This document shows positions 2,720 to 23,383 of a stretch of 64,000 nt of DNA, piece by piece. Each line of letters begins with the position of its first letter. Positions within the stretch are counted from its first letter, which is position 1. Below the pieces are notes generated by a model that saw only the letters and a program-made list of their open reading frames with translations, had not been told where the DNA came from and searched no databases. The DNA is taken from positions 558,001 through 622,000 of the forward strand of contig NZ_CP017706.1 of NCBI RefSeq assembly GCF_002706375.1, written 5' to 3'. The stretch comes from Lactobacillus amylovorus DSM 20531 (GTDB lineage Bacteria; Bacillota; Bacilli; Lactobacillales; Lactobacillaceae). Made by a program: the position numbers and the translations under genes.

Positions 2720-2791
2720 GTATTTCACCTCCTCATAGATTAGATATTTATATTTTACAGGATAAGCGAACATATGTCTCTATTTTTAGAA

Positions 2792-2819
2792 TAAAAAAAG
2801 CTGACTGCTAGGTCAGCTT
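2792..2819 (-). terminator. intrinsic terminator downstream of murC
   Basis: Read leftward, the arms AAGCTGAC/GTCAGCTT enclose a six-base loop and run into seven T residues. It lies about 50 bases after the murC stop and just upstream of tnpB, so it would also shield tnpB from murC transcription. Confidence 0.75.
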
Positions 2820-2831
2820 GGCCCTATCCAT

Positions 2832-2851
2832 CCCCGCATTAAAATACGGGG
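2832..2851. repeat. short hairpin, possible left end of the TnpB element
   Basis: The arms CCCCG/CGGGG surround a ten-base AT-rich loop between the murC stop and the terminator. A subterminal hairpin at this place is expected for the left end of an IS200/IS605-type element, but the exact boundary cannot be fixed without an empty-site comparison. Confidence 0.35.
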
Positions 2852-2869
2852 ATTTTCGGGCGTTTTTCA

Positions 2870-4183: not shown

Positions 4184-4234
4184 ATTTAACTCTCCATAAT
4201 GTTAAAAATACTCGTCTTTTATTCTAACATTATT

Positions 4235-6136
4235 TCATTTTTCCGTAGCAAAATCAGAGAACTTTAGAAGTACTTTTTTAGCCCCGCTGCTTGGGATTAA
4301 GTAATATCTTGTCTTTTGGTTACCTTTCCAACCTTCTGCTGGATAATAACCTGGCTTGTGTGCCCACTTTTGATATACCTCGACCATTGGATAATTTTTG
4401 TCACTATTGTAGGCTTGACGCATTAAATTCAAGATTTGTTGTGCTTCTAGAGGCGTTAAGTTGTTGATGTCTTTTACTTTGACTTTTACACCCTTCAAAT
4501 TTTTCTTAGCAAAATTAACTTGCCATAAAGCTTCGTTAACTGCAGCCTTAGTTGCATCTTTATCCGCTGCAACAGTCTTCGTATTTTCTATGGCTTGGTC
4601 GTACAAGCTACGATTTACCCAGTTGTCTAGACGATACTTATCGGATGCCTTAACAGTACTTTCATCAGAAATTGCATTGGTAAGTGAAGTCTTTTCACTA
4701 GTAGTTGCTAATGCACTATTTGCTTTGGCTTCAGCTTCTGTGTTGCTGGTCTTAAGCTTTCTACCACTGAGTGCTACATCACTAGCTTTGACATAGAGAT
4801 TGCTGTAGGCAGTATTTTGACGATCGTCTTCTGCACCTGATTTGTAAACCAATGAGTTTTGAACATGGTAGTACAATTCAGCTTTGTTTTCCTTGGCATC
4901 CCACAAGTAAAGCTTTTGGTTAACGGCCAACTCATCACCGTCAAATTTAGTATCAACCTTTTCACCGTTGACGTTGTAGAAAGCAGTTTGACCTATCTTG
5001 AAGTCAGCCACACTATAGCGCATGTTGTACGCATCTTCACCGCTAAGATATTGTTTAGCTAAAGTTGGACCATTATCACCACTCCAAACATAAGGAACGT
5101 CTGGACTGCTTTCTTCATATAAGCCAGTATCAATATAAACTGGATTCTTACCGCCTTTTACACGATAGTAAGAAGCAGTATAGTCTCCCATACCGGTTTG
5201 AACCACCATATCGGCTGTTACAGTTTGTCCTTTCTTGTACAGCTTATTGATTTGTTGGAAGTCTTGATTGTAAGCAAGTGTATCGGCAACAATCTTAACC
5301 TTGATAGGACCTTTGGTATAAAGAGCATTACCATTAATGGCATTTACGTTGTTAGCCTTGATGTACTGATTCTTACCAATTCTGAAGTAATAGTTGTCCT
5401 TAATCTTGTAGCTTTTAAGTGAACGAACAGTATGGTTCTTGTTATTAGCCACATAGAAATATTGGCCACCTTTGTCCTGAACTTTACCAGCATATGGTAC
5501 TAATCGACCTGCTTTAATTACTTGTCGTTGACGTTGACCGCGAGAATTATAAACGGAACTATTTTGAGAAACGAATAAAATTTCCTTGCCATTTAATTTA
5601 GCAATTTGGTCACTTTGAATATAGATGTTCTTGCCAATGTTGTAGTAAGTATAAGGCTTACGGTAGTATTCCTCACCGTTTGGAGACTTAATCTTAGTGT
5701 TATATGGCAAGTAAGCACGCTTGCCACGGTAGGTCTTCAGTCTCTTACCATTTTTATCGTAGACATATGAATTTCTAGTAAGTACATATGTATCGCCCTT
5801 CATTACATACGCATTATTTTGTTTGACATATCCACCATTGCCGATATAGTAATAAGGTTCTTGGTTAATAAGACGTGGTGTTGTGGCACTAGCATAAACC
5901 ACTTTGTCACCCTTAGTTAAAATAGGTTGACCATAGAATTTATAATTCTTAATTTTGATACTCTTATTGGCATGGATAAATTCGCCTTTTTGTCTAATAT
6001 AAGGCGTTGCGGTTTTATCGTAGCCTTTATGTAAGGTAATACTTTGTGCATTAACTGTTTGAGAAGTTATTAATCCTAAAGAAACTGCTGCTAAAACAGC
6101 CGCTGCACTGGATAAAATTTTATTGTTGAATTTCAT
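4235..6136 (-). CDS. large SLAP-domain surface protein
   Basis: A 633-residue secreted protein. The ATG at 6136 follows GGGAGTGGGG, a better fit than the in-frame ATG 30 bases upstream. A signal peptide (MKFNNK, then a hydrophobic AAAVLAAVSLGLIT, cleavage after VNA near residue 31) precedes five or six repeats with YIGNGGYVKQNNAYV, YVYDKNGKR and YYNIGKNIYIQSDQI patterns. These are SLAP-type wall-binding units. The final 170 residues lack these repeats and are mostly helical, with a Lys/Asn-rich ending. No LPXTG motif is present. The specific role is unknown; attachment to secondary wall polymers is inferred from the repeats. Confidence 0.8.
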   Translation of the reverse strand: MKFNNKILSSAAAVLAAVSLGLITSQTVNAQSITLHKGYDKTATPYIRQKGEFIHANKSIKIKNYKFYGQPILTKGDKVVYASATTPRLINQEPYYYIGNGGYVKQNNAYVMKGDTYVLTRNSYVYDKNGKRLKTYRGKRAYLPYNTKIKSPNGEEYYRKPYTYYNIGKNIYIQSDQIAKLNGKEILFVSQNSSVYNSRGQRQRQVIKAGRLVPYAGKVQDKGGQYFYVANNKNHTVRSLKSYKIKDNYYFRIGKNQYIKANNVNAINGNALYTKGPIKVKIVADTLAYNQDFQQINKLYKKGQTVTADMVVQTGMGDYTASYYRVKGGKNPVYIDTGLYEESSPDVPYVWSGDNGPTLAKQYLSGEDAYNMRYSVADFKIGQTAFYNVNGEKVDTKFDGDELAVNQKLYLWDAKENKAELYYHVQNSLVYKSGAEDDRQNTAYSNLYVKASDVALSGRKLKTSNTEAEAKANSALATTSEKTSLTNAISDESTVKASDKYRLDNWVNRSLYDQAIENTKTVAADKDATKAAVNEALWQVNFAKKNLKGVKVKVKDINNLTPLEAQQILNLMRQAYNSDKNYPMVEVYQKWAHKPGYYPAEGWKGNQKTRYYLIPSSGAKKVLLKFSDFATEK

Positions 6137-6418: not shown

Positions 6419-7780
6419 ATGAAAGCCCTTCATTCAAATATTCTAAAGCTGATGGACAATATTATCAATAAAATTGCCGCTAATATTCATGCTTTCTCTA
6501 CTTCAGATAAGGCTTTTACCCGTTGTCGCAAGCTCAATGTCGTTGACTTGATTAAGCTAATTCTAAATATGGGAGCCGGCAGTTTAAACTCGGAAATCTT
6601 TCATGCATTTCCTGATATGAATCTCAGAATGACTACTTCAGCTTTTGAACAGCAGAAAGCTAAATTAAAGCCCGAATGTTTTAAGGAAATTATGTTAGAA
6701 CTCAGTCGTGAAAGTACTACACTACAATTGTTGGATGATAAGTATTTAGTTGTAGCGATTGATGGATCTGATTTTGACCAGCCATTTAATCCTAAATCGA
6801 AAAACATTTTTAACAATAATGAGGGCCAAGTATATTGTCAGATTCACGTAAATGCTCTCTACGATGTCTTGAATAAATTATATTTAGATTTGATTATTCA
6901 GCCTCATCGAAAGATGGATGAACGTGAAGCTGCGCTGACAATGTTAGAAAATCTGGACAAGCGAGAAAAAGATTTTTTAGTTTTAATGGATCGCGGCTAC
7001 AGCAGCTTTAACTTAATTGAAAACTGTAACAGACTAAAGAATTGTCATTATCTTATCAGAACTAAAGCTGGATATGGTGCCATTAAAGAAATCGCTGTAT
7101 TGCCAGAGCATGAATGTGATATTGACCTTTCGTGCAAAGTAACCTCATTGCATCGCTATTATATGATTCACAAAGATACTGAAAAATTTCTCCACTTAAT
7201 ACACCACAAAAAGCATCACTATAAAGCCGTTCGATCTAAAAATACCTACGATCAGCGCTGGGATTTTGAAGATTTATGCAATGTAAAGTTCCGAGTATGT
7301 AAGTTTAGAATTAATCCACCAGGCTCAGATGATGAGTGGGAAGTACTTATCACCAATTTGGATCGAAATGAATATCCTCTGGCTAGGATAAAAGAGATCT
7401 ATCACCTTCGTTGGGGAATAGAGACTTCTTTTAGAGAGCTTAAATATGATTTAAGTGGCGTTCAGTTTCATTCTAAGAAAGATCAATTTGTTTATATGGA
7501 AATATATGCTCATTTTGCAATGTATAACGCTATGAGTTTATCAGTGATTGCAAGCTCAAAACCATATACTCAGGGAAAATACCAATATCAAATAGACTTT
7601 AAAATGGCTTGTTGTGTTTGGCGTCGATATTTTAATTCAAGTGATAATTCTGATAAGGGGTTTACGCAACTATTATTAAATATGTCATTTTATCTTACAC
7701 CAATTAGACCAGGGAGAAAAGACAAGCAAAATTTAAAGAATAAATTAGTGATTGGCTTTCCTTATCGTCTAGCAGCCTAA
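6419..7780 (+). CDS. IS4-family DDE transposase, intact
   Basis: A 453-residue transposase with the DDE layout of the IS4 family: first Asp in VVAIDGSDF (about residue 116), second in LVLMDRGYSSF (about 189), and the Glu in the Y-(2)-R-(3)-E-(6)-K type motif HLRWGIETSFRELKYDLSG (about 336). The start is the ATG at 6419, preceded by GAAAGG. This copy looks able to act on its own ends and probably on those of the disabled right-hand copy, whose ends match. Confidence 0.93.
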   Translation: MKALHSNILKLMDNIINKIAANIHAFSTSDKAFTRCRKLNVVDLIKLILNMGAGSLNSEIFHAFPDMNLRMTTSAFEQQKAKLKPECFKEIMLELSRESTTLQLLDDKYLVVAIDGSDFDQPFNPKSKNIFNNNEGQVYCQIHVNALYDVLNKLYLDLIIQPHRKMDEREAALTMLENLDKREKDFLVLMDRGYSSFNLIENCNRLKNCHYLIRTKAGYGAIKEIAVLPEHECDIDLSCKVTSLHRYYMIHKDTEKFLHLIHHKKHHYKAVRSKNTYDQRWDFEDLCNVKFRVCKFRINPPGSDDEWEVLITNLDRNEYPLARIKEIYHLRWGIETSFRELKYDLSGVQFHSKKDQFVYMEIYAHFAMYNAMSLSVIASSKPYTQGKYQYQIDFKMACCVWRRYFNSSDNSDKGFTQLLLNMSFYLTPIRPGRKDKQNLKNKLVIGFPYRLAA

Positions 7781-8865: not shown

Positions 8866-9738
8866 TTATTTTCCATAAATCTTATTAAATAGGTCTTCAA
8901 TACTAATTTTATCTACTGAATATTGAATATTACGCTGTAATAATTCGACAGTTATTTTTTCTAAAGCATTTGCTTTATTCTTAGAAATAGGTATTAAAAC
9001 TAATCCATCAGGTAATTTTTCATACTTAAGATGTACCAGTATCTTTGAAACTTCTGATGACATTCGAACCTTTAAGTATTGCTTATTTTGTCCTCTATTA
9101 TCAAAATCTTGAATTACCCCACCATCTTTTAAAAATAAAATCCGGTCAGCATACATTTGTAAGTTTTGCAATAAATGAGAAGCCATAATAATTGTTTTTT
9201 TCTTCTCTTTTAGATCTACAAGTACTTTAGATATTAAAGAAACATTTTGTGGATCCAATCCATTCATGACTTCGTCTAACAACATAACTGGTGTATCTGC
9301 AACTACAACCATTGCAAAACATAAACGCTGTTTCATTCCAAGTGAATACGTTTCAACTTTATGATCAACATAGGCATTCATATTAAGTTCATTAACAATT
9401 TCATCAACAGATATTTTAGAATTGTCCCATAAATTCGCATAAAGTTTTAAATGATCTCTTCCAGTCATAAATGAAAATAAATCACTTTGATCAGGGAAAG
9501 CACATATTTTTTTATGTAGTCTAACAATATCACGCTCATTTTTATAACGTAGACCGTCATACTCAACAAAGCCAACTTGAGGTGTAAGATTATTTAAAAT
9601 TATATTTATTAAAGTAGACTTTCCTGTACCATTTGGTGCAACCAATCCGGTAATTGTTCCCTCTTCAAAATTTAGGGATAAATCATTAAAAATCTTCTTT
9701 TGACCAAAAGATAAGGTCACATGCTGTATTTTTAACAT
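8866..9738 (-). CDS. ABC transporter ATPase (lanthipeptide export or immunity)
   Basis: A 290-residue ABC ATPase: Walker A GLVAPNGTGKST (about 33-44), signature YSLGMKQRLCFAM, Walker B PVMLLDEVMNGLDPQ, and H-loop ASHLLQN. It is the last gene of the leftward operon and follows the second permease by 12 bases. Single-domain ATPases with two ABC-2 permeases next to lan genes usually form LanFEG-type self-immunity pumps that extrude the peptide from the membrane. No LanT-type exporter with a peptidase domain is present here, so this pump could also be the exporter. Confidence 0.88.
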   Translation of the reverse strand: MLKIQHVTLSFGQKKIFNDLSLNFEEGTITGLVAPNGTGKSTLINIILNNLTPQVGFVEYDGLRYKNERDIVRLHKKICAFPDQSDLFSFMTGRDHLKLYANLWDNSKISVDEIVNELNMNAYVDHKVETYSLGMKQRLCFAMVVVADTPVMLLDEVMNGLDPQNVSLISKVLVDLKEKKKTIIMASHLLQNLQMYADRILFLKDGGVIQDFDNRGQNKQYLKVRMSSEVSKILVHLKYEKLPDGLVLIPISKNKANALEKITVELLQRNIQYSVDKISIEDLFNKIYGK

Positions 9739-9750
9739 TTACTTTTCACC

Positions 9751-10992
9751 TCAATTAATTAACGGAATTTTCTTTGTTCTACAGATTAAAAATATAATTG
9801 CTTCAATAACTATAACGGTTAACATTAATGAATTTATCCCTTCATTAAATCCCCATCCAGGAGAATCCATCATGTAAGATAAATTGCCAGACAAACTATC
9901 ACCGATTGTAAAATATGTTGTAGGCAATCGCTGTAAAAATGGATGAACAAAGCCCATTCCCATTGAAAAATAAAACACCTTGCCGCTTACAGCAACTATA
10001 CTTGCCACAATTTCTGCAACATATTCATTTCTGAATAACAAAGATAATAGCATCGTTAAATGAATAAAAATGAATGTAATTACAACGGTAAATATAAGTA
10101 ATTGCAAATAATACATACCTAAAGTTGGATAAGTAAACGGTATCTTAAAATATAATCTCCCTGTATAAAAAGTGGTTCTTAAATTAAAGGAGCCTAACCC
10201 ATATCTAGGAGCAATGCATGCTACTGCAATAATAAAAGCCATCAAGAAATCAAGTAGAACGCCCAGTTCAACTACAGCTGTCTTTATCCACAATACAGTA
10301 CTTTTACTCAAAGGGATATTTGTAATAACTGTACGGTACTTTTTATCTCTCGGAAAAATGTCAGCTGTACAAAAAATGACGATTATTATTAAAACCAAAG
10401 TTGTCCATCCCGATAAGGAATTTTGGATTCTTTGTAAAGCAGTATTTTCTTCCAACACATTTTTATTTAGATTGGCATGACTAGTCAAAAGTGCATTATA
10501 AAAATGATGAGTTCGTTGATAACCAAAATGCCCATTCTCTTTATAAATTCCATTGTGCCCATATTCTACTGGATACATAAAATTCTTATTTTCTTTTACA
10601 AAAATCAAATGATCAACATATTTAAACCATTTACTTGAATATAGGGTATATGTTCTCCAATCTTTTCTTTTTAAAGCAACTAATCTTTTTTTATCATATT
10701 TAAGTATTGTCGGATAAGTTTCAATTGCATTTTTTGCACCCTGACTAGGAATAACCGTTAAATTAGGTTTATTTGCTTGTAAAAATTCTTTTTTTGCAAC
10801 TTTAAGAAAAGCAGTATCATCTTTATATTCTTTTTTAATGGCATATGGATCAATGCGATTAATAACGTGGTGATCAGGGACACTTACTATCCCAAAATAT
10901 AAGGCTAACAATGCAGTAACTATGTATAAACCAATATTTTTAGGATTCGTAAAGAATGTTTTTACTTGAAAAAGAAAATAATGCCATTTCAC
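9751..10992 (-). CDS. ABC-2 type permease, second subunit
   Basis: A 413-residue membrane protein. One segment lies near residues 15-33, followed by a long extracytoplasmic loop to about residue 190 and then five to six hydrophobic segments. This is the layout of ABC-2 permeases with a large outer domain. The start is a GTG that shares one base with the upstream stop (TAGTG at 10990-10994), so the two permeases are translationally coupled. It pairs with the other permease and the ATPase as an immunity or export pump; the substrate is inferred from context. Confidence 0.8.
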   Translation of the reverse strand: MKWHYFLFQVKTFFTNPKNIGLYIVTALLALYFGIVSVPDHHVINRIDPYAIKKEYKDDTAFLKVAKKEFLQANKPNLTVIPSQGAKNAIETYPTILKYDKKRLVALKRKDWRTYTLYSSKWFKYVDHLIFVKENKNFMYPVEYGHNGIYKENGHFGYQRTHHFYNALLTSHANLNKNVLEENTALQRIQNSLSGWTTLVLIIIVIFCTADIFPRDKKYRTVITNIPLSKSTVLWIKTAVVELGVLLDFLMAFIIAVACIAPRYGLGSFNLRTTFYTGRLYFKIPFTYPTLGMYYLQLLIFTVVITFIFIHLTMLLSLLFRNEYVAEIVASIVAVSGKVFYFSMGMGFVHPFLQRLPTTYFTIGDSLSGNLSYMMDSPGWGFNEGINSLMLTVIVIEAIIFLICRTKKIPLIN

Positions 10993-12107
10993 TATGCATC
11001 CCTCCCCTTATCGACTAAACACCGAAAAGAGATCATTAAAATTAATGACCACACCATTAATACGAACACACCCATATAACAATTTACAAAGGAGAATTTA
11101 GTTATATTAGCTACAGTTCCATTAAATACTTTAGTAATATTCAAATATGTCGAGGGAAGCCATAAGAAATATTTGCTCATTTTTTCTGGAAGGAATGAGA
11201 TCGTATAAACGAACATCCCTATTAAAATACTCAAATAAACATTTTTAGTTATTTGATTAAGTACCAAAGTTAAAGATGTAGCAAAAATCACTATTACAAT
11301 GCTATAAAGTAAAAATAGTAAACAGTATAACCATAAAGAGATAGCAGTAATTTTAGTAAAATAAAAAACATCAGGGTATCTTAAATCAGAAAAGCCATTA
11401 CGGATACCAGCAAATAAATATGCCCCTATCATGCCTATTAGTAGCGGAATAACTGTTAGGGCTAAATTAATATTAATCTTACCTTTTACTTCATCTTCAA
11501 TTCGATATGGAATATTCTTTAAAACCGTTGGATGATTTAATTTAAGCATCCATACATCACTTGAAACGAAAAGTACATAAAGAAAAATAAAACAGCCTAC
11601 TAGCGACAAAATATAAATTAAATATGTTGACGAAGATTCTGAATTCATCACTATTGGGATATGATGCTTATAAAGATATTTGTATGAAACCAGTCGCTGA
11701 TATAGTTCATATTTTGCAGGAACATTGAGCGTTTTTGCACCTTTATAATTATTCCTATAACCAGCAATCATTGTTTTTATTAAGTTTTCTGATCCCTTCA
11801 AATAAGATTGTGGATCATTAAATGCCTCACCATTTTGTAAATCAGCAATATATGCTGACTGTTTATTCAAATTATCATAAGTTTGTTTATAACGTTTATT
11901 ACGAAGCGAGCTTCCATCAAAATAATCAGTATTTACTTGGACTGATTCTGCATAATCACGCCATTGACGAACTCCATCTCCAATTTCTTGAGATTCAACC
12001 ACAAATAGGAAAAAAGTCATAAAAATTATTAGCAAACAAACCAAAAGAAAGTTCTTTTTTGATTTTATTGCAATCTTGAAGTTGGCTTTAAAATAGTTTG
12101 GATTCAT
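10992..12107 (-). CDS. ABC-2 type permease, first subunit
   Basis: A 371-residue membrane protein with the same plan as its downstream partner: one hydrophobic segment at about residues 22-38, an outer loop rich in Tyr and Asn to about 155, then a cluster of segments. The start is taken as the ATG at 12107, which follows AAGGTGACCATT; a GTG nine bases upstream lies too close to that site. It begins 13 bases after lanC, within one operon. Confidence 0.8.
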   Translation of the reverse strand: MNPNYFKANFKIAIKSKKNFLLVCLLIIFMTFFLFVVESQEIGDGVRQWRDYAESVQVNTDYFDGSSLRNKRYKQTYDNLNKQSAYIADLQNGEAFNDPQSYLKGSENLIKTMIAGYRNNYKGAKTLNVPAKYELYQRLVSYKYLYKHHIPIVMNSESSSTYLIYILSLVGCFIFLYVLFVSSDVWMLKLNHPTVLKNIPYRIEDEVKGKININLALTVIPLLIGMIGAYLFAGIRNGFSDLRYPDVFYFTKITAISLWLYCLLFLLYSIVIVIFATSLTLVLNQITKNVYLSILIGMFVYTISFLPEKMSKYFLWLPSTYLNITKVFNGTVANITKFSFVNCYMGVFVLMVWSLILMISFRCLVDKGRDA

Positions 12108-12119
12108 AATGGTCACCTT

Positions 12120-13382
12120 TTAATATAAAAATAACCAATCAGTTTGCCATCTTACATTATGACTTATTGCATTCAATACCAAACTAACTCCCAATTCACC
12201 TTCTAAAATTCCCATTTCATATCTACACTTATTATCATAAAGATTCATAGAAACATCCGAAAACAAATATCTTTTATTCCAATTGACATGACTCAATAAG
12301 AATTCCAGCATATCATTCATATAGTAATTAAAAGTTTCTTCTTTTGTTTCAAGAAATAAGATATAAGAGCTATATATTGCATTAATCAGTCCATGACACA
12401 ATATTAGTGAATTAGGTCTAATATCTGTTTTCCAATTTTTTAATACAAATTCAAATTCTTTTTGTAATTTATTAATTAGTAAAACATTATCTATACTCCT
12501 TGCAGCCTTAAGCATAGCTCTCAATATTCCTAAAGATCCAAAGCACCAGCCACCGTTTAATGAAGAAATCGATGTATTTTTAACTGCTGTAATACATTCA
12601 GGATATAGTGTTTTATTATTTCTAAACTTAAGAAATACGTTTAATAAACGTTGAATATGTTCTTTTAGTTCCGGTGAACTAAATCTAGAATACACTTCTG
12701 ATAAGATACTCAATATACCAGCCAACCCATGAGCCATTCCCATAAACAAGCCGCCATTAGGTAATAAGATTCTTGATTCACCATTCTCAGGTAAGTTTTT
12801 CTTTAATAGATATATTGGAGATTGCGATATATCATTAAAATCTACATAAGATATCCTAATCAAGAAGTTAATAAGTTGTTCAATCCCCCTATTAACTCTC
12901 GCAGAATGTATTAATTCATTTGCATGAAAAAGAAAATCTAAAATTCCTACGGATCCATTAAATAGATCATATACTGCAAATATCATATTTTGTTGTTGAT
13001 ATTTTTCAACAGCAAAAACTTTTTCAACTTTATTAGTTATTATTAGAGAGATTTGTGTTAATAGTTTCAGATAATTTGAATCGTATTTTGCCATTTCAAG
13101 ACAAGCCGTACCCACACCCGATAACCCACTAAATAAGGACAATGACACATTATTTTTATTTATAGAGTTGATCATTGCTTGTGTAATTTTCAAATTTGTG
13201 TTTTTTATCAATATTTTTTTATCAACACTATTTGTAGTTTTATATATATCTGAAAGAAAAATGCTCATACCCGCAAGTCCATTTGCAACTCCAATATCAG
13301 TACTTTTTTCCTTTAGATTTTGTATACAGCTATCTAGAGAATGATCTAAAATCCTACTAATTTCTTGTTCTATTTTGATCAT
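12120..13382 (-). CDS. lanC: class I lanthionine synthetase cyclase LanC
   Basis: LanC adds Cys thiols to dehydrated Ser/Thr to close (methyl)lanthionine rings, using a zinc ion. The 420-residue protein has the repeated Gly motifs of the alpha/alpha toroid (GVANGLAGMSIFL, LFSGLSGVGTA, LFNGSVGIL, GMAHGLAGIL) and the zinc ligands in order: NGGWCFGSLGI (Cys) and LILCHGLIN (Cys-His). The catalytic His in MAHG is also present, so it should be active. Its start lies 26 bases inside the end of lanB, showing coupled translation. Its match to a single precursor gene upstream makes lanthionine formation on that peptide the obvious role. Confidence 0.93.
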   Translation of the reverse strand: MIKIEQEISRILDHSLDSCIQNLKEKSTDIGVANGLAGMSIFLSDIYKTTNSVDKKILIKNTNLKITQAMINSINKNNVSLSLFSGLSGVGTACLEMAKYDSNYLKLLTQISLIITNKVEKVFAVEKYQQQNMIFAVYDLFNGSVGILDFLFHANELIHSARVNRGIEQLINFLIRISYVDFNDISQSPIYLLKKNLPENGESRILLPNGGLFMGMAHGLAGILSILSEVYSRFSSPELKEHIQRLLNVFLKFRNNKTLYPECITAVKNTSISSLNGGWCFGSLGILRAMLKAARSIDNVLLINKLQKEFEFVLKNWKTDIRPNSLILCHGLINAIYSSYILFLETKEETFNYYMNDMLEFLLSHVNWNKRYLFSDVSMNLYDNKCRYEMGILEGELGVSLVLNAISHNVRWQTDWLFLY

Positions 13383-16038
13383 ATTTCTTCCTATCTGACT
13401 TCACTTTTTCATACTCCAGTATATTTAAATTTAATTGATATTCTTCCTTCTTAGTTGGTTTGAGAAATCTATTAAAATGCATATGTAGAAGCGAAATCAC
13501 TACACTATAATATTTTGGTTTACAGTTATTATATTTTTCTTTTACTTTTTCTAAATATTTGAGAATAGGATCAACATAGTTATCTATGTTTTGATCATTA
13601 AAAATATAACTTTTTTTTTCAAAGTTAATTAATTGCGATACAATGCTACTATGTTTTGAAATTCTCTGATCCTTTGTAAGAATAAATTTAGCTAAGTATT
13701 CAAAATCAACTTTAGCCTTTTCAAGAGTATATGCTGCACTTAAAATAGTTAGTAATTTTATCTTTTCTTCTTGCATATTAATTGTCTTCAAAGCTAATTT
13801 ACTATCACTCTCAAAAGCCTTTAAAGCATCATTAAATAGTGTCTCTCCTCCATATCTTGAATATTCTGGCCTAAAGTTAACTAATTTGAAGTCATTTATT
13901 AATTTTATATTTAAGAGATAGTTCAAGATTTTTAGGATTTTTACTAAAATTCTTTCATCAGCCTGCCAAATTCTTAGACGTAAACTTGGCTTTCCATCAT
14001 CATTGTACTGAATAAAAAAACAATTTTTTTGAATCCCTGCTCTTTTTAAAACTTCGTTGACAACCTCAACATAATTTTTTTCAAATAAATTAGGATACAA
14101 AATAAATGATAAAAATCCATTAGCATAAGTTAATTCATTATTATTTTTTCTATATTCTGATAATACATCCTGACTAGTATTCTTATCTTTACTATCTGCA
14201 ATATAGAATGAAAAAACTCCTTGAATAATATTATTCTTATGAAATTCTGATATTTCGGGAACCTCAACAAAGCTAATTTGGTTATTACTTTTATGAATTA
14301 TTTTCTTTAAAGTCTTCAGTTGTAAATCATTACTTAAATCAAAAACTGTTGGTGCTTCTCCTAATGAAACCCCTATTATTCTCGGCACGTTGTATCTATA
14401 GCGCCAGTTAGTTATAGCTCTTGAGAAACTTTTATCTTGCTCTTTCATGAACTGAGTATCTAATTTCCATTGTTCTCTACGAATAATTATGTCTTTATAT
14501 TCTAGTCTTGGAGACCATACTCTTTCACCTAAGTATCCTGGCAAAACAGGTTTAAAGCTTTCATATCTTTCTCTTGAGAGGAAAAACAAGAACCTATACA
14601 TCTTATTATTAACTGCTAAGCCATTAACCGCATTTGTAAATCTAGGTATAACTCTTTGATGTAAATCTTCGGACCATAAGTAAATACCTTGATCATCTAA
14701 TCCAACTGATAAAGAATCAATATCAAGTTCCTGTTTAATATTATCTTTAGTACTATTTAAATTAATTTCGTATTTATATGGATTAATATTATTACTAATT
14801 GATGCGAATTTTGGATTTTTAAAAAGATACCGAACTTCTGCAATAATTTCATTTTCTGATGCTGACTTTCGTAAAAAACTCAGCATTTTTTTCCTGGCCT
14901 CTGATGGATATGCTTGAATAAAACGACCTATAATTTTTCCGTCACAAGAACTACCAATACCTAAATCTAATATTAGTTTGCCATCTACTACGCTTGCGAG
15001 TAAATCGCCGGATATATTATGGTAACATTCTTGTTTCATGCCTTCTATTATTTTCTCAGGAATAGTGATTTTAGTTTTATTTTGAATTATTTGTGAAGTA
15101 ATATAATCTTCTAATAATTGATAATTATTACCTCTATGAAATTCAATATCGTCATTATTCCAGAAATTGAATTCATCTGAATAAACAACCTTTTTTAAAG
15201 GTATACGTTCAAATAAATAATTTTCAGAAAAATAATTTCGTAGTTTTTTCCATCCCTTATATTCTTGCTTTGTATCTAAAAAATGAGTTAAAAAATATAC
15301 TGCAGAATTTACATCTTTATTAATATCTGTATTAGCAGAATCTAAATTAGAACTAAAACATATTGGTTCTTCTTCATAAGTTGTGGCTTTCGAACAACAT
15401 ATAAATCCAATTTTTATTAATTTGTTCAAATAAATAATAAACGCTGATTCAGAAATTATTGAAAATTCTGATTTTATACTCTGAAATAATTTTGAATATA
15501 AAGTCCAATTTTGCAAATTTAATCTTAGCCAGTTCAAAATCAAAGTGTCTTTAATACAGGTAGAATTAGTTTTCTTGCCTTCATTTTCTATAAAAATTTT
15601 ATTTTCTCTTTTTAAGAATAAATTAGTAAGTTTTAATTCAATTTGGGATTTATTATTTTCTGTTATTACACAATTATTACGCGTTATATATCTTAACTTC
15701 TTTTCGACTTCCTGAGATTTTATCTTGTTATCAAAGGTTATAAAACCCAATTTAGTCATATATCTGAATGGAGTTGTTCTAGTTCCCATGCGCAATAAAT
15801 AGTTCTGTAAGGAGACAGCTAACTTTCTTATTTGCTTTTCCTTAGTCATAGATCCATTTTTATATTTGTTTATTGCATTGAACAACAAGGTATTAGAATC
15901 TCGTAAGGCTTTTAAAATTAATGGATTACTCTCACAAAATAATATTATCTCATCCAAATTTTGAAATTTTTTCTTTACTATTTCGGTAGATATGATTGGT
16001 TTTCTGAATAAATTTATGGGTGATATTACAATATCCAA
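13357..16038 (-). CDS. lanB: class I lanthipeptide dehydratase LanB
   Basis: LanB dehydrates Ser and Thr of the precursor by glutamylation from glutamyl-tRNA followed by elimination. At 893 residues it is somewhat shorter than NisB, yet both halves are visible. The N-terminal glutamylation domain has LRMGTRTTPFRYMTKLGF (about 94-111) and the later SPRLEYKDIIIRREQWK. The C-terminal elimination (SpaB-C) domain has FFIQYNDDGKPSLRLRIW and NFRPEYSRYGGETLFNDA. The start codon is TTG at 16038, supported by AAGGAAG nine bases upstream; no nearby ATG fits. The usual His-Leu-Arg of the family reads Ser-Leu-Arg here. A terminator-like hairpin lies between the precursor and this gene. Confidence 0.93.
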   Translation of the reverse strand: MDIVISPINLFRKPIISTEIVKKKFQNLDEIILFCESNPLILKALRDSNTLLFNAINKYKNGSMTKEKQIRKLAVSLQNYLLRMGTRTTPFRYMTKLGFITFDNKIKSQEVEKKLRYITRNNCVITENNKSQIELKLTNLFLKRENKIFIENEGKKTNSTCIKDTLILNWLRLNLQNWTLYSKLFQSIKSEFSIISESAFIIYLNKLIKIGFICCSKATTYEEEPICFSSNLDSANTDINKDVNSAVYFLTHFLDTKQEYKGWKKLRNYFSENYLFERIPLKKVVYSDEFNFWNNDDIEFHRGNNYQLLEDYITSQIIQNKTKITIPEKIIEGMKQECYHNISGDLLASVVDGKLILDLGIGSSCDGKIIGRFIQAYPSEARKKMLSFLRKSASENEIIAEVRYLFKNPKFASISNNINPYKYEINLNSTKDNIKQELDIDSLSVGLDDQGIYLWSEDLHQRVIPRFTNAVNGLAVNNKMYRFLFFLSRERYESFKPVLPGYLGERVWSPRLEYKDIIIRREQWKLDTQFMKEQDKSFSRAITNWRYRYNVPRIIGVSLGEAPTVFDLSNDLQLKTLKKIIHKSNNQISFVEVPEISEFHKNNIIQGVFSFYIADSKDKNTSQDVLSEYRKNNNELTYANGFLSFILYPNLFEKNYVEVVNEVLKRAGIQKNCFFIQYNDDGKPSLRLRIWQADERILVKILKILNYLLNIKLINDFKLVNFRPEYSRYGGETLFNDALKAFESDSKLALKTINMQEEKIKLLTILSAAYTLEKAKVDFEYLAKFILTKDQRISKHSSIVSQLINFEKKSYIFNDQNIDNYVDPILKYLEKVKEKYNNCKPKYYSVVISLLHMHFNRFLKPTKKEEYQLNLNILEYEKVKSDRKKYDQNRTRN

Positions 16039-16111: not shown

Positions 16112-16255
16112 TTAATCCATTGTAGCAATTGGACATGGTGGATTAACACATGAACATGAAGAATATGCTGAGTAACTCTTTGCATAACCTTCTGCATCAA
16201 ATGCATTAACTGCACTTTCATCAATTTTTAAGTCTAATAAAGCAGATTCTGTCAT
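16112..16255 (-). CDS. lanA: lanthipeptide precursor peptide
   Basis: A 47-residue ORF with a strong ribosome site (GGGAGG, about 8 bases before the ATG). Residues 1-26 form a charged leader, with LLDLKID at 6-12 in the place of the FNLD-type box that class I LanB enzymes recognise. Residues 31-47 read YSSCSCVNPPCPIATMD, giving Cys at 34, 36 and 41 with Ser at 27, 29, 32, 33 and 35 on their N-terminal side, so up to three lanthionine rings are possible. The leader cleavage site is not obvious: there is no GG motif, and no LanP protease gene is in the island. The identification rests on its place directly before lanB-lanC, its size and its Ser/Cys content. I recognise no known mature peptide. 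Confidence 0.85.
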   Translation of the reverse strand: MTESALLDLKIDESAVNAFDAEGYAKSYSAYSSCSCVNPPCPIATMD

Positions 16256-16288: not shown

Positions 16289-16320
16289 CAAAGTTTAAAA
16301 ACATAAATTTTTAAACTTTG
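16289..16320 (-). promoter_or_regulatory. 13-bp inverted repeat in the precursor 5' region
   Basis: A perfect 13-bp inverted repeat (16289-16301 with 16308-16320, arm CAAAGTTTAAAAA) with a six-base loop lies about 34 bases before the precursor start. It lacks a following T run, so it is more likely a transcript-stabilising hairpin in the precursor leader, or an extra operator, than a terminator. Confidence 0.5.
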
Positions 16321-16327
16321 TACTGTA

Positions 16328-16378
16328 ATTTTATTCTTATATTTTAATGTAGTCTTTATTTTTTCAAATTTGATAATT
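16328..16378 (-). promoter_or_regulatory. candidate activator site and promoter of the precursor
   Basis: Bases 16361-16378 (minus strand AATTATCAAATTTGAAAA) contain the palindrome TCAAATTTGA. A -10-like TAAAAT begins 30 bases downstream of the palindrome, and no good -35 box is visible. The same 18 bases recur inverted at 16495-16512 with nearly the same distance to a -10 box. Promoters without a -35 box and with an upstream palindrome are typical of activator control. Binding by the neighbouring MutR-type protein is inferred. Confidence 0.55.
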
Positions 16379-16433
16379 ATTTATACAACTTAATTTCTGG
16401 TATTAAGCCATATGGCTCTGGAACAATAACCAT
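16377..16433 (-). CDS. 18-residue peptide, candidate signal or leader peptide
   Basis: An ATG at 16433 is preceded by GAGGTGATTAAA, as good a ribosome site as any in the window. It opens an 18-codon frame (MVIVPEPYGLIPEIKLYK) ending in TAA at 16377-16379. The peptide has no Ser, Thr or Cys, so it cannot be a lanthipeptide substrate. It lies between the MutR-type regulator and the precursor, has its own promoter-like region, and shares the 18-bp element with the precursor promoter. A pheromone sensed by the regulator is the attractive reading. It is not like a classic SHP (no Lys-rich start), and a translated leader without peptide function remains possible. Confidence 0.5.
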   Translation of the reverse strand: MVIVPEPYGLIPEIKLYK

Positions 16434-16462
16434 TTTAATCACCTCTATAAAAATATAAGATT

Positions 16463-16512
16463 ATTATAGTAATTTAAGGTGATTCTTTTATTACAATTAT
16501 CAAATTTGAAAA
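16463..16512 (-). promoter_or_regulatory. candidate activator site and promoter of the 18-residue ORF
   Basis: The 18-bp element at 16495-16512 is an exact inverted copy of 16361-16378. Its palindrome TCAAATTTGA ends 31 bases upstream of a perfect -10 box, TATAAT at 16463-16468. The -35 position reads only AT-rich sequence. The element starts immediately after the regulator's stop codon, so the regulator gene and this promoter abut. Confidence 0.6.
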
Positions 16513-17325
16513 TTATTTTGGCAATAATTTTAAAAAATTACTGTATCCACTTAGCGATAGAATTTTTCTAATAGTTTCTTTAGATAAATTATCCCTGGCA
16601 AAAACCGCTTTGTAATATAGAGCTAATTCTTTATATCCTATAAATAATGGATCTTCTGGTAATAATTCTATTTCTTTTAAGGCACTATCAATATTTTTAG
16701 GATTATTATTGTCATAACAATTTTGCAAATAGTTTATAGCTATTGAGGCAATTAATTCTTGAACGTATTTATCACTATCTTTAATCATTTTAAAATGATT
16801 AAAGATAGAATTAACCATTACAGTTAGTTCTTCAAAACTAAAAATAATCATTGAAGTACTAAAAAGTTGCAATGAAAAAGTATCCCAATTATCAGTATTA
16901 AAGATTTCGCTTTTAATCCTTCTTTTTTCTTCAGAACTAATATGCTTCAAATTTTTTTGTATAGAACATTTCATTAATTTAGCTAATAAAATTAAATGGT
17001 CATCATATTTTAGTTCTTCAATTCGTGTTACAATGTGATTTATTTTATCGAGATTCTGTTCATAAAAAGCCTGTTGTAATTTTTTAGTTAATATTTCCTG
17101 TTCTGAAAGTTTATTTGTTTTTATTTCTCGAAAAAATCTTACAACATCAATTCCGTGTAAAGTCAAAATCCTCATTAAATCATTTACATTTATATCAAAT
17201 AAATTTCTTTCGACTTTCGAATAATATGAAACAGACAAAACAGAACCAACCATTTCTTTTTGTGATAGTCCCAATTCTTTTCTCTTATTTTTTAATGCAC
17301 TTCCAACTAAAATTGTATTTTCCAT
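16513..17325 (-). CDS. Rgg/GadR/MutR-family transcriptional regulator
   Basis: A 270-residue regulator. The ATG at 17325 follows AGGTGATTAAG; a GTG nine bases upstream falls inside that site. Residues 8-60 form an XRE-type helix-turn-helix (LKNKRKELGLSQKEMVGSVLSVSYYSKVERN). The rest is the all-helical repeat domain that in Rgg and MutR proteins binds short peptides. MutR-type regulators commonly activate lantibiotic operons. It is the first gene of the leftward series, and two identical palindromic elements lie downstream before the 18-residue ORF and the precursor. Peptide sensing and activation are inferred from family and context. Confidence 0.85.
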   Translation of the reverse strand: MENTILVGSALKNKRKELGLSQKEMVGSVLSVSYYSKVERNLFDINVNDLMRILTLHGIDVVRFFREIKTNKLSEQEILTKKLQQAFYEQNLDKINHIVTRIEELKYDDHLILLAKLMKCSIQKNLKHISSEEKRRIKSEIFNTDNWDTFSLQLFSTSMIIFSFEELTVMVNSIFNHFKMIKDSDKYVQELIASIAINYLQNCYDNNNPKNIDSALKEIELLPEDPLFIGYKELALYYKAVFARDNLSKETIRKILSLSGYSNFLKLLPK

Positions 17326-17737: not shown

Positions 17738-19117
17738 TTAAGCTACGCGATATAAATAATATACAGCTGATTTGGGCTTAATATTTCTCTTGTCCTTGCG
17801 GCCTGGTCTAATTGGAATGGTATAATAGCTGATCTGAATAAGGATCCGTTCAAAATCTTGCGTTAAAGAAGAAGCCAAATACATGCTCTGAATAATCAAG
17901 CATGATTGCTTGAAATTGATGGCATATTGATACTTGCAATGCTTTTGCGGAATATAGGCCTGTGCATCAATTTGACTGATTGCATTAAACATAATCATAT
18001 GGGCATAAATTTCCATTTCAATAAATTTATCTTGTTTGGAATGGAACTGTACGCTGCCTAAAGAATACTTCAATTTCTTGAAGGAGGTCTCAATACCCCA
18101 ACGCAGATGATAAAGCTCTTTAATTCTTTTTAGCGAATAATTTTTTCGATCAAGATTGGTTAGCACAACTTCCCATTCTTCTTTGCCTGATTTGGCATCA
18201 TTAATTCTAAATTTGCAGGCTCGAAATTTTATTGTGCATAACTTGCCAAAATCCCAGCTTAGATCCTGGGTATTTTTAGAGCGATACTTAATATATTGGC
18301 GATAATGATGCTGGACATGGTGAATATTCTCACTGGCTTTATGCGTGATGTAGTAATAGTTAGAAGTAGTTACCAGGCAGGAAATCTCACGATCACATTC
18401 TTGATCAGGCAATGTCGTTATTTCTTTAACTCCGCCTTGTCCAGCCTTAGTTCGTATTATGTAATGACAGTTAGACAGGCGATTGCAGTTTTCAATCATA
18501 TTGAAACTAGTGTAGCTACGATCCATTGTTACAATATATGGACCACAATTCAAAGCTTTAAGCATTTGAACAGCCGCTTTGCGTTCATCCATTTCTGATT
18601 TAGGCTGAAAAATACAATCCTGGTAGGTATTATTCAATAGATCATATAAGGCATTAACGTGAATTTGTCAATAGGGTTTCTTTTTATGAGAAGAAGCTTG
18701 TACAATGTTATTCAATTTCGGATTCCAGATTTGATTAAAGTCAGAGCCATCAATGGCAAACAAACGGTAGTGATGATCAAAAAGTTGAATATTAAATAGA
18801 TTTTGATTAAAAACAGTCAGAATATGTTTAAAACAAGCAGGAGAAAGCTGGCTTTTGCGTTGAACATAGGCAGAAGTACTAACTACTTTATCGTTCTTTT
18901 TAGTTGCATCTTCGCCAAAAGCTTTAAAGAGTTCACTGTTTAAATTCTGACCTTGCATGTTAATTGTAGTTTTAAGGACTGTCGCTGCATTTAAAGTGCG
19001 TTTCCTGGTAAAAGCATGAGGATTATTAATAAAATCGTGAATATGATCCCCAGTATTATTGATAATTTGATCAAGACGTTCTAGAATATTCTTATGAAGG
19101 GCTTTCATAATTAACAC
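17738..19117 (-). pseudogene. IS4-family transposase with one nonsense codon
   Basis: Read from 19117, the frame is open to a TGA at 18668-18670 and then continues in the same frame to 17738. The intact left copy has TGT (Cys) at the matching position in VYCQIHVNALYD. The stop falls between the first Asp (FAIDGSDF) and second Asp (VTMDRSYTSF), so no active product is expected. The protein is clearly related to the left transposase (for example HLRWGIETSF and VQFHSKQD are shared) but differs at many positions, so the two IS are relatives, not recent copies. Confidence 0.88.
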
Positions 19118-21414: not shown

Positions 21415-22653
21415 CTATCTAATTCCAAAGTTCTTTTGATTCATTTTTCTAACGCGATTTGGCAAGTAAGTGGCAACTACCAATGCGGTAAACACGAGTA
21501 AAATACCAATTGCTTCAAATAAGTTTACATTAATTGGCAATAACAATAACCAGAAAATACTGATTAATACCCATTGAATCAGCAAGCCTAAAGTTAATAC
21601 TTTGACCAAGTCCTTGCCACGATCTTGACGTTCAATTGGGTAAACACGATACATAAAGTTACGGTCGAATTCGGTTGCCATTGGCAATAATTGGTAAACA
21701 GTCAAGAAGATCACCAAGCATGATAAGCCAAGCGCCCAGCGCCAATCTTGCACTAACCATGAAATCAAAATTGCGAAGACGGTCATTCTAACCAGCAAGT
21801 TCAAATACTCTGGATTTCTAAGTAGTGATCTTCTGTATAAGAACAAGTTAGGATTTTCTTTAGCAATTGACTTAGGCAAAAGGAAGTCCAAGTACTTTCT
21901 TCGCTTGATGCTTACTTGCTTTTCTTCGACATCGGTAAACATGCTGAAGACTGAATAAACACGGTCTTTTCTAGCCTTTTCGCTTTCTACAGCATAGCGC
22001 CAGTCAAAGAGCAGCTTTTTATTCATCTTATCGCCAAACGATGGCTTAAAGTTAGGCGCAAACAAGATAGTTCCAACTACACCTAAAGCCAAACCTACCA
22101 TTGGATAATAAGCGGAAAGAATTGCAATAAGCAAGGCAACTAAACTAACTAGTCCAAAACTTAGCTTTTTGCCAAAGTATAGATTGCTTTTTTCAATCTC
22201 TAGTTCCGTATCTTTGATAAAGAGCATAGCGAGCACCAACAAGATATAGCTCCAAACACTAATGCCGGCTTTAACTGTCGCAAATGGGAAGACAACCCCT
22301 GCCAGCAAGATTTCCAAAATAGCTGGTAAAACCAGGCTATATCTGTGCATGGGACTTAAATATTCATCCATCTGCTCATCTTGCGTGAACAGAAACTGCA
22401 TATCTGCTTCTTTGATTAAAGTAACAAAGCGTCCTGTCAAAAGAGGCAGCCATAAGATAAAACCAGTTAATGGCTTATAAAACCCAAGGTTAGTTGGCAT
22501 CGTCTTCATCGCTTCAGCATACCAAAACATCAATGCACCAACTAAAAAGATCAAAGCCAAAATAAAGAAGTCATTGAAAACAAGCGTTAAATATTTAACC
22601 GATTGTCTGAGATTCTCATTAAATCTCTTTTTAGCTAACTCACGCATTGCCAT
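21415..22653 (-). CDS. ecsB: ABC transporter permease EcsB
   Basis: A 412-residue membrane protein with about ten hydrophobic segments and a cytoplasmic loop around residues 205-250. It belongs to the EcsB family, the membrane partner of EcsA. In Bacillus the Ecs transporter affects secretion and intramembrane proteolysis by RasP; the substrate is uncertain. Its start overlaps the end of ecsA by 14 bases. Confidence 0.9.
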   Translation of the reverse strand: MAMRELAKKRFNENLRQSVKYLTLVFNDFFILALIFLVGALMFWYAEAMKTMPTNLGFYKPLTGFILWLPLLTGRFVTLIKEADMQFLFTQDEQMDEYLSPMHRYSLVLPAILEILLAGVVFPFATVKAGISVWSYILLVLAMLFIKDTELEIEKSNLYFGKKLSFGLVSLVALLIAILSAYYPMVGLALGVVGTILFAPNFKPSFGDKMNKKLLFDWRYAVESEKARKDRVYSVFSMFTDVEEKQVSIKRRKYLDFLLPKSIAKENPNLFLYRRSLLRNPEYLNLLVRMTVFAILISWLVQDWRWALGLSCLVIFLTVYQLLPMATEFDRNFMYRVYPIERQDRGKDLVKVLTLGLLIQWVLISIFWLLLLPINVNLFEAIGILLVFTALVVATYLPNRVRKMNQKNFGIR

Positions 22654-23383
22654 GATCCTCTCTATTCAAAGCCAAATACAACTTATCAAATGGATCATCA
22701 GGTTTTAAGCCGTAGTGTTCACGAATGTCTTGCAAACTACCGATTATTTCAATCGTACCGTTGTTTAAAACAGCATAATTTGAAATAGCTTGTTGTGCAT
22801 CAGCCAAAACGTGAGTAGTCATGAGCACCATCTTACCGTTGGCAATAGCTTTTTTAATCAAATCAATTAAGTTAGCAACGGCTAAAGGATCAAGTCCTGT
22901 AAATGGTTCATCGATTACGAGTAAACTTGTATCTGCTAAAAAAGCAGAAACGATCATTACCTTTTGGCGCATCCCTTTTGAAAAGTGGATTGGCAACCAT
23001 TCCAGCTTGTCATCAAGTCTAAACATCTTAAGCAGTTCATGCGCTCTTTCCCAAGCCTTCTTTTCATCCAATTTGTAGCTAAGCATGGTCAATTCCAAAT
23101 GCTCTTTTAATGTCAATTCTGGATACAAAATTGGTGTTTCAGGAATATAAGCCACTTCACGCTTAAACTTCGTTGGTTGTTGAGTCAAAACTACGTCGTT
23201 TAAAGTGATCTTACCTTTTTGCGGTCTAAGCAAACCTAAAATATGCTTAATTGTGGTTGATTTACCGGCCCCATTTAAACCAATTAAGCCCAGCGCTTCA
23301 CCTGGTTTAATTTCTAAATTTATATCTTTAATAACCGGGACACCTGTATAGCCTCCAGTTAAATGTTCAATTTTTAATGTCAT
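22640..23383 (-). CDS. ecsA: ABC transporter ATPase EcsA
   Basis: A 247-residue ATPase: Walker A GLIGLNGAGKSTTIKH (about 36-51), signature HFSKGMRQKVMIV, Walker B LLVIDEPFTGLDP, and H-loop MTTHVLADA. It is coupled to ecsB by overlapping translation. It is divergently arranged from hit, the usual order in Firmicutes (hit / ecsA-ecsB). Confidence 0.93.
   Translation of the reverse strand: MTLKIEHLTGGYTGVPVIKDINLEIKPGEALGLIGLNGAGKSTTIKHILGLLRPQKGKITLNDVVLTQQPTKFKREVAYIPETPILYPELTLKEHLELTMLSYKLDEKKAWERAHELLKMFRLDDKLEWLPIHFSKGMRQKVMIVSAFLADTSLLVIDEPFTGLDPLAVANLIDLIKKAIANGKMVLMTTHVLADAQQAISNYAVLNNGTIEIIGSLQDIREHYGLKPDDPFDKLYLALNREDHGNA

Follow-up and report, generated by a model that had tools for sequence, protein, structure and literature searches.

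The window, i.e., the complete stretch of 64,000 nucleotides that was analyzed, contains on its minus strand a class I lanthipeptide gene cluster encoding a LanB dehydratase, a LanC cyclase, and a Cys-containing precursor peptide. It forms part of a genome of 2.17 Mb in one contig (G000). Read along the minus strand, the cluster comprises an Rgg/GadR/MutR-type regulator and putative peptide receptor (270 residues, 16513 to 17325), an 18-codon micro-ORF (16377 to 16433), the lanthipeptide precursor (47 residues with the core ...SSCSCVNPPCPIATMD, 16112 to 16255), LanB (893 residues, 13357 to 16038, Pfam Lant_dehydr_N and Lant_dehydr_C), LanC (420 residues, 12120 to 13382, Pfam LANC_like), two membrane-like proteins (9751 to 12116), and an ABC transporter ATPase (8866 to 9738). 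The membrane-like proteins have no family match and are probably ABC permeases, and the best NCBIfam match of the ATPase is of the lantibiotic-protection type, below the cut-off. The precursor, identified as an ORF, is the presumed target of regulation; five proteins are similar to it, two of which possess a different C-terminus. Transposase genes are located on both sides of the cluster (17738 to 19117 and 6419 to 7780), one of them in two pieces. An identity of 99.4 to 99.7% to another species suggests recent transfer.

The regulator scored above the cut-offs of the Pfam models Rgg_C (33 bits, cut-off 27) and HTH_3 and of the NCBIfam model TIGR01716 (44.9 bits, cut-off 36.9), in line with the original prediction that an Rgg-class regulator directly precedes the ORF. 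Its structure model is similar to peptide receptors of solved structure, its best matches (VIA-align) including Rgg144, Rgg3, Rgg2, ComR, and PrgX, and the predicted fold includes a peptide-binding repeat domain; the model is nearest to the SHP receptors Rgg144, Rgg3, and Rgg2.

The micro-ORF begins with an ATG at 16433 to 16431, and its stop codon ends at 16377. A Shine-Dalgarno sequence, GAGGTG (16440 to 16445, minus strand; GGAGGTG at the related locus L036, see below), is positioned 6 nt upstream of the start codon, and a perfect TATAAT, the −10 hexamer of the micro-ORF promoter, is found at 16468 to 16463. A promoter scan of the window yielded no −35/−10 pair using this hexamer; a missing −35 partner is what would be expected of an activator-dependent promoter. 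The putative signal peptide, MVIVPEPYGLIPEIKLYK, is devoid of Ser, Thr, and Cys; its MVIV and GLIP stretches are hydrophobic, and it also contains two Glu and two Lys residues as well as Pro. No leader or export signal was apparent in it by eye. The original prediction, in which the strand was unstated, had placed the ORF between regulator and precursor at exactly these positions and had pointed out the strong ribosome site, the perfect TATAAT, and the absence of dehydratable residues that LanB could modify, all of which our analysis confirmed. An in-frame GTG farther upstream (16442) was rejected as the start codon because it overlaps the Shine-Dalgarno sequence. When the gap that holds the micro-ORF was shuffled with dinucleotide frequencies retained, an ATG ORF of 6 to 30 codons with a strict Shine-Dalgarno sequence appeared in 50 of 5,000 shuffles (1%). 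Among 54 mechanically defined ORFs of at least 120 residues in the window, the regulator gene is the only one with a strict Shine-Dalgarno ORF of 6 to 20 codons located 50 to 115 nt 3′ of it.

Two operator-like sites accompany the micro-ORF. Putative operator 1, AATTTTCAAATTTGATAATT (16495 to 16514, minus strand), overlaps the stop codon of the regulator gene upstream of the micro-ORF promoter, and its palindrome was equaled in 3 of 60 shuffles. It is an 18-bp inverted copy of putative operator 2, AATTATCAAATTTGAAAAAA (16359 to 16378, minus strand), located upstream of the precursor promoter. The exact core, TCAAATTTGANAATT, occurs at two places in the genome (three matches), before the micro-ORF promoter and before the precursor promoter, and in 13 of 75 genomes of the genus, which makes it rare, though not exclusive. 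L036 retains both sites, one of them as the perfect palindrome AATTGTCAAATTTGACAATT. The distances from the palindrome center to the −10 hexamers of micro-ORF and precursor are 36 and 35 nt in the window and 35 and 35 nt in L036, if the precursor promoter uses the putative −10 hexamer TAAAAT (16328 to 16333, minus strand; TACAAT in L036). Such a pair of matched sites is the picture expected if one regulator acted at both promoters. Among the 91 Rgg loci introduced below, a second near-copy of the site following the Rgg gene was detected, within the sequence fetched around each locus, only in L006, L007, and L036, all representing this cluster, and in L075 and L099, so the duplicated operator is no general feature. 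A reading of the two sites as 18-bp inverted repeats of a miniature transposon around the micro-ORF was rejected because they are two copies of a palindrome that L036 keeps despite nearby letter changes, and because palindromes with other letters follow the stop codons of many Rgg genes.

Close to the 5′ terminus predicted for the precursor mRNA, folding and alignment revealed a 14-bp hairpin or palindrome (16289 to 16320, minus strand), with fold z scores of −4.5 in the window and −4.0 in L036 and one pair changed on both sides; it may act as an mRNA stabilizer or as a further operator. This strong conserved hairpin before the precursor, the location of the micro-ORF directly upstream and in the same direction, and fold z scores of −2.0 for the ORF stretch of L036 and −2.2 for the ORF-to-precursor stretch of the window would fit a leader-peptide attenuation mechanism, in which translation of the micro-ORF controls read-through into, or translation of, the precursor. 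We nevertheless regard attenuation as very improbable: the ORF stretch of the window itself folds unremarkably (z, −0.53), no terminator was found in the gap between regulator and precursor, the precursor has a promoter-like site and an operator copy of its own, and the genes located downstream of the micro-ORFs at other Rgg loci are of various kinds.

Conservation of the micro-ORF was assessed against L036, a 4.4-kb contig that represents the sole diverged locus read with intact regulator, precursor, and LanB, the latter being 81% identical to LanB of the window. This Lactobacillus-like contig is filed under the metagenome-assembled genome Candidatus Avigastranaerophilus faecigallinarum, presumably owing to a binning error. 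L036 keeps the start codon, the frame, and the N-terminal sequence of the micro-ORF as well as a strong Shine-Dalgarno sequence of its own, and the product reads MVIVPEPYGLIPGVGLYNQ. In the pairwise alignment, codons 1 to 12 are 97.2% identical with one synonymous change, whereas the part from codon 13 to the stop codon is 71% identical, with four of codons 13 to 18 changing the amino acid. The corresponding values are 85.9% and 83.9% for the gaps flanking the micro-ORF, 85.4% for the regulator, 84.6% for the start of LanB, and 95.7% for the precursor, the start of which was set at 16252 for this alignment and for the NCBIfam scan, the true ATG being at 16255. A degree of conservation equal to that of codons 1 to 12 was reached by none of 171 overlapping noncoding segments of 36 nt, by 9 of 260 in-frame segments of the regulator gene, by 5 of 201 segments of lanB, and by 20 of 36 segments of the precursor gene.

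In a sister species (G012), the region is 99.4 to 99.7% identical and retains the regulator, an identical micro-ORF, and both operator-like sites, while a deletion has removed the core of the precursor along with most of lanB. This deletion fuses the leader of the truncated precursor to the C-terminus of LanB (L039, G012:C49, 3932 to 4700); a protein of different origin, P0018, appears to be a fusion of this type as well. Loss of the ORF or a broken frame in relatives, which according to the original prediction would speak against a signal peptide, was observed neither in L036 nor in G012. As to the conservation with synonymous bias that it proposed as a check, the conservation was found for codons 1 to 12; the bias cannot be shown, as a single synonymous change is too few. 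A search of 75 genomes of the genus with the micro-ORF pattern returned G000 and G012 only, plus two matches with three mismatches each that look like chance, and these two genomes are also the only ones among 397 of the family with a LanB match at an E value of 1e−40 or better. Plasmids searched with DNA and with LanB, and viral contigs searched with LanB and the micro-ORF pattern, returned nothing useful. The micro-ORF is conserved and probably translated.

The arrangement of regulator and micro-ORF was surveyed in the genus at 91 loci drawn from the regulator matches listed, namely the best match of each of 30 genomes, L036, and 60 further matches taken in order down to an E value of 5.8e−28; five matches were skipped (one each in G003, G004, G013, G025, and G028), and a single weaker match in the own genome was included as well. 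Grouping at 80% identity gave 64 clusters. A co-directional ATG ORF of 6 to 20 codons with a strict Shine-Dalgarno sequence, located 50 to 115 nt after the Rgg stop codon, a range chosen after a first look at the loci, is present in 20 of these 64 clusters among the matches listed. The same rule gave a mean of 0.5 and a maximum of 4 in 200 dinucleotide shuffle sets and counts of 0 or 1 in five other strand and offset controls. At loci L006 to L053, L126, and L127, which were picked mostly for their Rggs, such a micro-ORF follows 12 of 106 ORFs of at least 120 residues, and all 12 are Rgg genes. A standout palindrome (equaled in at most 3 of 60 shuffles) lies no farther than 34 nt from the Rgg stop codon in 27 of 64 clusters, compared to 0 of 63 at a control offset of +200, and a −10-like hexamer at +45 to +51 is present in 19 of 30 candidate loci, compared to 3.9 in shuffles (SD, 1.8; maximum, 11). 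Taken together, these counts identify the order of Rgg stop codon, palindrome, −10 hexamer, and micro-ORF as a repeated layout.

The layout is unevenly distributed. No strict Shine-Dalgarno ORF was found 50 to 115 nt after the Rgg stop codon in 44 of the 64 clusters, the near receptors L009, L024, and L058 have no such micro-ORF, and presence or absence requires 14 changes on the receptor tree. Even receptors of a single cluster can differ. The palindrome found in L086 and L092 is also present in L102 and L109, yet these two have no LPVLP micro-ORF and possibly represent receptors that have lost their signal; in L064 and L067, the L018-type ORF is altered and has no Shine-Dalgarno sequence. 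In L024, L026, and L058, which are relatives of the regulator, a GTATAC-centered palindrome after the stop codon is followed, at the position expected for the micro-ORF, by a longer ORF preceded by a Shine-Dalgarno sequence (transporter-like by eye). Across the family, regulator matches at an E value of 1e−22 or better occur in 23 of 397 genomes and in 4 of 40 genera, and one of four loci outside the genus has a candidate micro-ORF (MTKSDIQIVG).

Judged by eye, the genes downstream of the micro-ORFs encode RiPP-like precursors, the start of LanB, an acyl-carrier-like protein, ABC transporters, and others. L126, another lanthipeptide cluster arranged like that of the window, carries in order (1744 to 5795) an Rgg-type regulator (Pfam HTH_3 only), MIIVTLPVLPKSN, a 40-residue precursor, and a LanB of 963 residues, and the related L127 also encodes LanC; the lanB frame of L127 appears to be broken into pieces. 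Two further modules reside in the own genome: L054 (G000:C1:987600-989550), an Rgg module with MIYTLPVILN, and L055 (G000:C1:630500-632400), in which MVIVVLPVLSN is followed by a 41-residue peptide ending in Cys and an acyl-carrier-like protein, possibly an unusual RiPP cluster. Twenty plasmid records matched, and eight plasmid loci were read. Rgg loci on plasmids of L. kefiranofaciens and L. paragasseri encode MIIVGYPVLPE and MKPEDVVIIVIKG, respectively, neither of which is in the gene table, which is incomplete and was compared for these eight loci only; an L. crispatus plasmid has MKKINNLVVGVIFGIDK, a candidate that fits the type less well, and none of the remaining five loci has a convincing one. 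The location of the micro-ORF of the window in a bacteriocin cluster could also suggest a small unmodified effector, such as an immunity factor or a second bacteriocin component. To this notion we attach next to no credence, as micro-ORFs of this kind also occur behind Rgg genes where the neighboring downstream genes, judged by eye, are not bacteriocin genes, and the micro-ORF products comprise only 7 to 18 residues.

The candidate products and their receptors vary together. Thirty peptides were collected, several of them under a relaxed Shine-Dalgarno rule and one (L015) with no good Shine-Dalgarno sequence; MVIVPEPYGLIPEIKLYK is the longest of them and is charged. Three families were recognized by eye, again after a first look at the loci: M(I/V)I..LPVLP, MDLLR.(V/I)III, and M.PWFPL, with L006, L056, L091, L108, and L015 left outside. 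Placed on the tree of 64 receptors, the three family labels (27 rows) require 3 changes, compared to a mean of 13.2 for shuffled labels, none of 200 shuffles being as low, and the family designated B coincides with one starred branch. Consistently, receptor identity and peptide similarity are correlated for the 30 pairs (Mantel r = 0.678; 0 of 5,000 permutations as high). The regulator of the window forks with L015, L057, and L027 (support of 86 in a quick tree), and its nearest receptors by tree path are L015 (MIIVIKPK) and L057 (MVIVVKPTF); the highest receptor identity among the matches listed, 37%, is to L009, where no such ORF is present. The M(V/I)IV..P likeness of MVIVPEPYGLIPEIKLYK to the L057 and L015 peptides is suggestive, although in local alignments to MVIVPEPYGLIPEIKLYK family B peptides such as MDLLRNVIIILPEP outscore both. 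The shortness of the ORF, the 1% of gap shuffles that produce a comparable one, and conservation that amounts to 12 codons in one locus pair raise the question of whether it is a chance ORF, conserved only on account of promoter or RNA sequence. Recurrence in the genus, conservation at the window, the tree labels, the Mantel correlation, and the control with other genes, taken together, make this highly unlikely.

The sequences themselves show the ORF and its conservation, the two copies of an operator-like site, the recurrence in the genus, and the covariation of receptor and peptide. We consider it probable that the micro-ORF encodes the leaderless cognate ligand of the adjacent regulator in a ComRS-like autoinducing circuit that controls the class I lanthipeptide cluster. 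According to this model, the peptide would be made from an activator-dependent promoter, leave the cell, be imported through an oligopeptide permease, and bind the C-terminal repeat domain of the receptor, which on its CAAATTTG-centered operators would raise transcription of the peptide's own gene in positive feedback and also that of the precursor-lanB-lanC-transporter genes; translation, export, import, binding, and activation are the inferred steps. The active part is most likely formed by the N-terminal 8 to 12 residues (MVIVPEPYGLIP), since the N-terminus is conserved while the C-terminal end varies; the last six residues look like a variable extension. The original prediction of a signal peptide probably holds insofar as the ORF is conserved, matched to its regulator in position and evolution, and linked to the precursor promoter by a shared putative operator; apart from the synonymous bias mentioned above, it needs revision in two respects. 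An active peptide derived from the C-terminus is unlikely, as it is the N-terminus that is conserved and common to the tree-nearest paralogues. Neither is the peptide an isolated new pheromone type; it is the longest of 30 candidates that share a ComRS-like layout and whose products are leaderless, like those of the LCP systems discussed below.

The peptide might instead remain intracellular and serve the regulator as a timer, an anti-activator, or a private ligand, in which case it would be the cognate ligand but no pheromone, a reading that the operator and covariation evidence fits equally well and with which the product, showing no leader or export signal by eye, agrees; a scan of the cluster proteins brought up neither an exporter nor a protease dedicated to it. 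Still, we judge it rather unlikely. Eight SBP_bac_5 matches, one with stops, were detected in the own genome, i.e., several Opp-type binding proteins that make import through Opp plausible, and 21415 to 23383 encode EcsB with an adjacent ABC ATPase, EcsB being homologous to the SHP exporter PptAB. Moreover, signaling from cell to cell is described for the leaderless peptides of RopB homologues (PMC10518010). An exported ligand of the adjacent regulator remains our preferred reading. Extending it to the genus, we lean slightly toward the view that Rgg/MutR regulators, including supposed orphans in lantibiotic clusters, are widely receptors for leaderless micro-ORF peptides of 7 to 18 residues that are encoded behind the receptor gene. 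These would comprise at least three families (LPVLP-like, DLLR-III-like, and P-WFPL-like) besides the MVIVPEP type, the mature signal would include the N-terminal end and may keep the initiator Met, and operators that have diverged from receptor to receptor would provide several private channels per cell.

A search for six of the peptide strings found no paper, the supplementary data of PMC10518010, which may contain some of them, being outside the search, and among the titles and abstracts listed that connect Rgg to Lactobacillus, to lanthipeptides, to LCPs, or to short hydrophobic peptides, none describes the module. One earlier survey considered ORFs of 20 to 120 residues that carry a signal peptide, or else small ORFs located upstream and resembling known mature peptides (PMC9765709), and another considered propeptides of 10 to 100 residues and listed six gene clusters of Lactobacillaceae as possibly so controlled (PMC10075063); with such criteria, the module would tend to be missed. 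In PMC10518010, ORFs of 6 to 100 residues were searched around RopB homologues, Lactobacillaceae included, so that a partial overlap with our candidates is possible, and its discussion suggests that orphan receptors may have leaderless ligands. Our genus survey presents a systematic case for this outside the four species that were tested there. It yields about thirty candidate micro-ORFs, too short for ordinary annotation, in 64 receptor clusters, and the locus described here provides a MutR-type lantibiotic regulator with a concrete candidate ligand, a pair of candidate operators, and a defined target promoter. Should the micro-ORFs encode true signals, they could offer a way to switch on neighboring silent RiPP clusters at will.

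Among known systems, ComRS displays a matching layout, in which a box near the receptor stop codon is followed by a TATAAT and comS and recurs at the target promoter (PMC4072589 and PMC5131902). Here, too, a small ORF is located directly downstream of the receptor gene, and putative inverted-repeat boxes precede both the peptide and the target promoter. The letters of the box differ, however, as does the target, which is sigX in ComRS and presumably the lanthipeptide precursor here, and whereas XIP corresponds to the C-terminal 7 to 9 residues of ComS, with two Trp residues in types II and III, the peptide of the window is conserved at the N-terminus and contains no Trp. With the LCPs of RopB-type regulators it shares the ultrasmall ORF preceded by a Shine-Dalgarno sequence within 450 bp of an Rgg gene and the missing leader; PMC10518010 also names RiPP clusters and ABC transporters as frequent LCP targets and describes one LCP with eight extra C-terminal residues among other longer exceptions. 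Unlike LCPs, which mostly comprise 8 to 10 residues and are preferably encoded divergently from the receptor gene, it has 18 residues, and its gene is co-directional. LCPs are strongly hydrophobic, with aliphatic and aromatic residues; the peptide of the window combines hydrophobic stretches with Pro, Glu, and Lys.

Rgg/SHP systems likewise combine an Rgg-family receptor with a neighboring short peptide gene, and some of them regulate RaS-RiPP clusters (PMC13361665). SHPs, though, possess a leader and a C-terminal signal that usually begins with Asp or Glu, and their genes are divergent or overlapping, features absent from MVIVPEPYGLIPEIKLYK and its gene. A likeness of MVIVPEPYG to SHP1299 (DIIIFPPFG) was rejected, as 355 of 3,000 shuffles were as good. 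The MutR-type lantibiotic regulators belong to the same family (TIGR01716) and also adjoin lantibiotic clusters; MutR and GadR are described in PMC9765709 as having no known quorum-sensing functions, whereas here a candidate ligand gene is adjacent. Tn7088 of L. crispatus was discarded as a lead, since its bacteriocin cluster is of the listeriolysin S type (PMC10763512). The ComRS-like arrangement together with the LCP-like absence of a leader points to a peptide circuit with positive feedback that would drive the lanthipeptide cluster, and the locus would work like ComRS and the LCP systems, yet it departs from LCP, ComRS, and SHP alike in a defining or typical feature of each.
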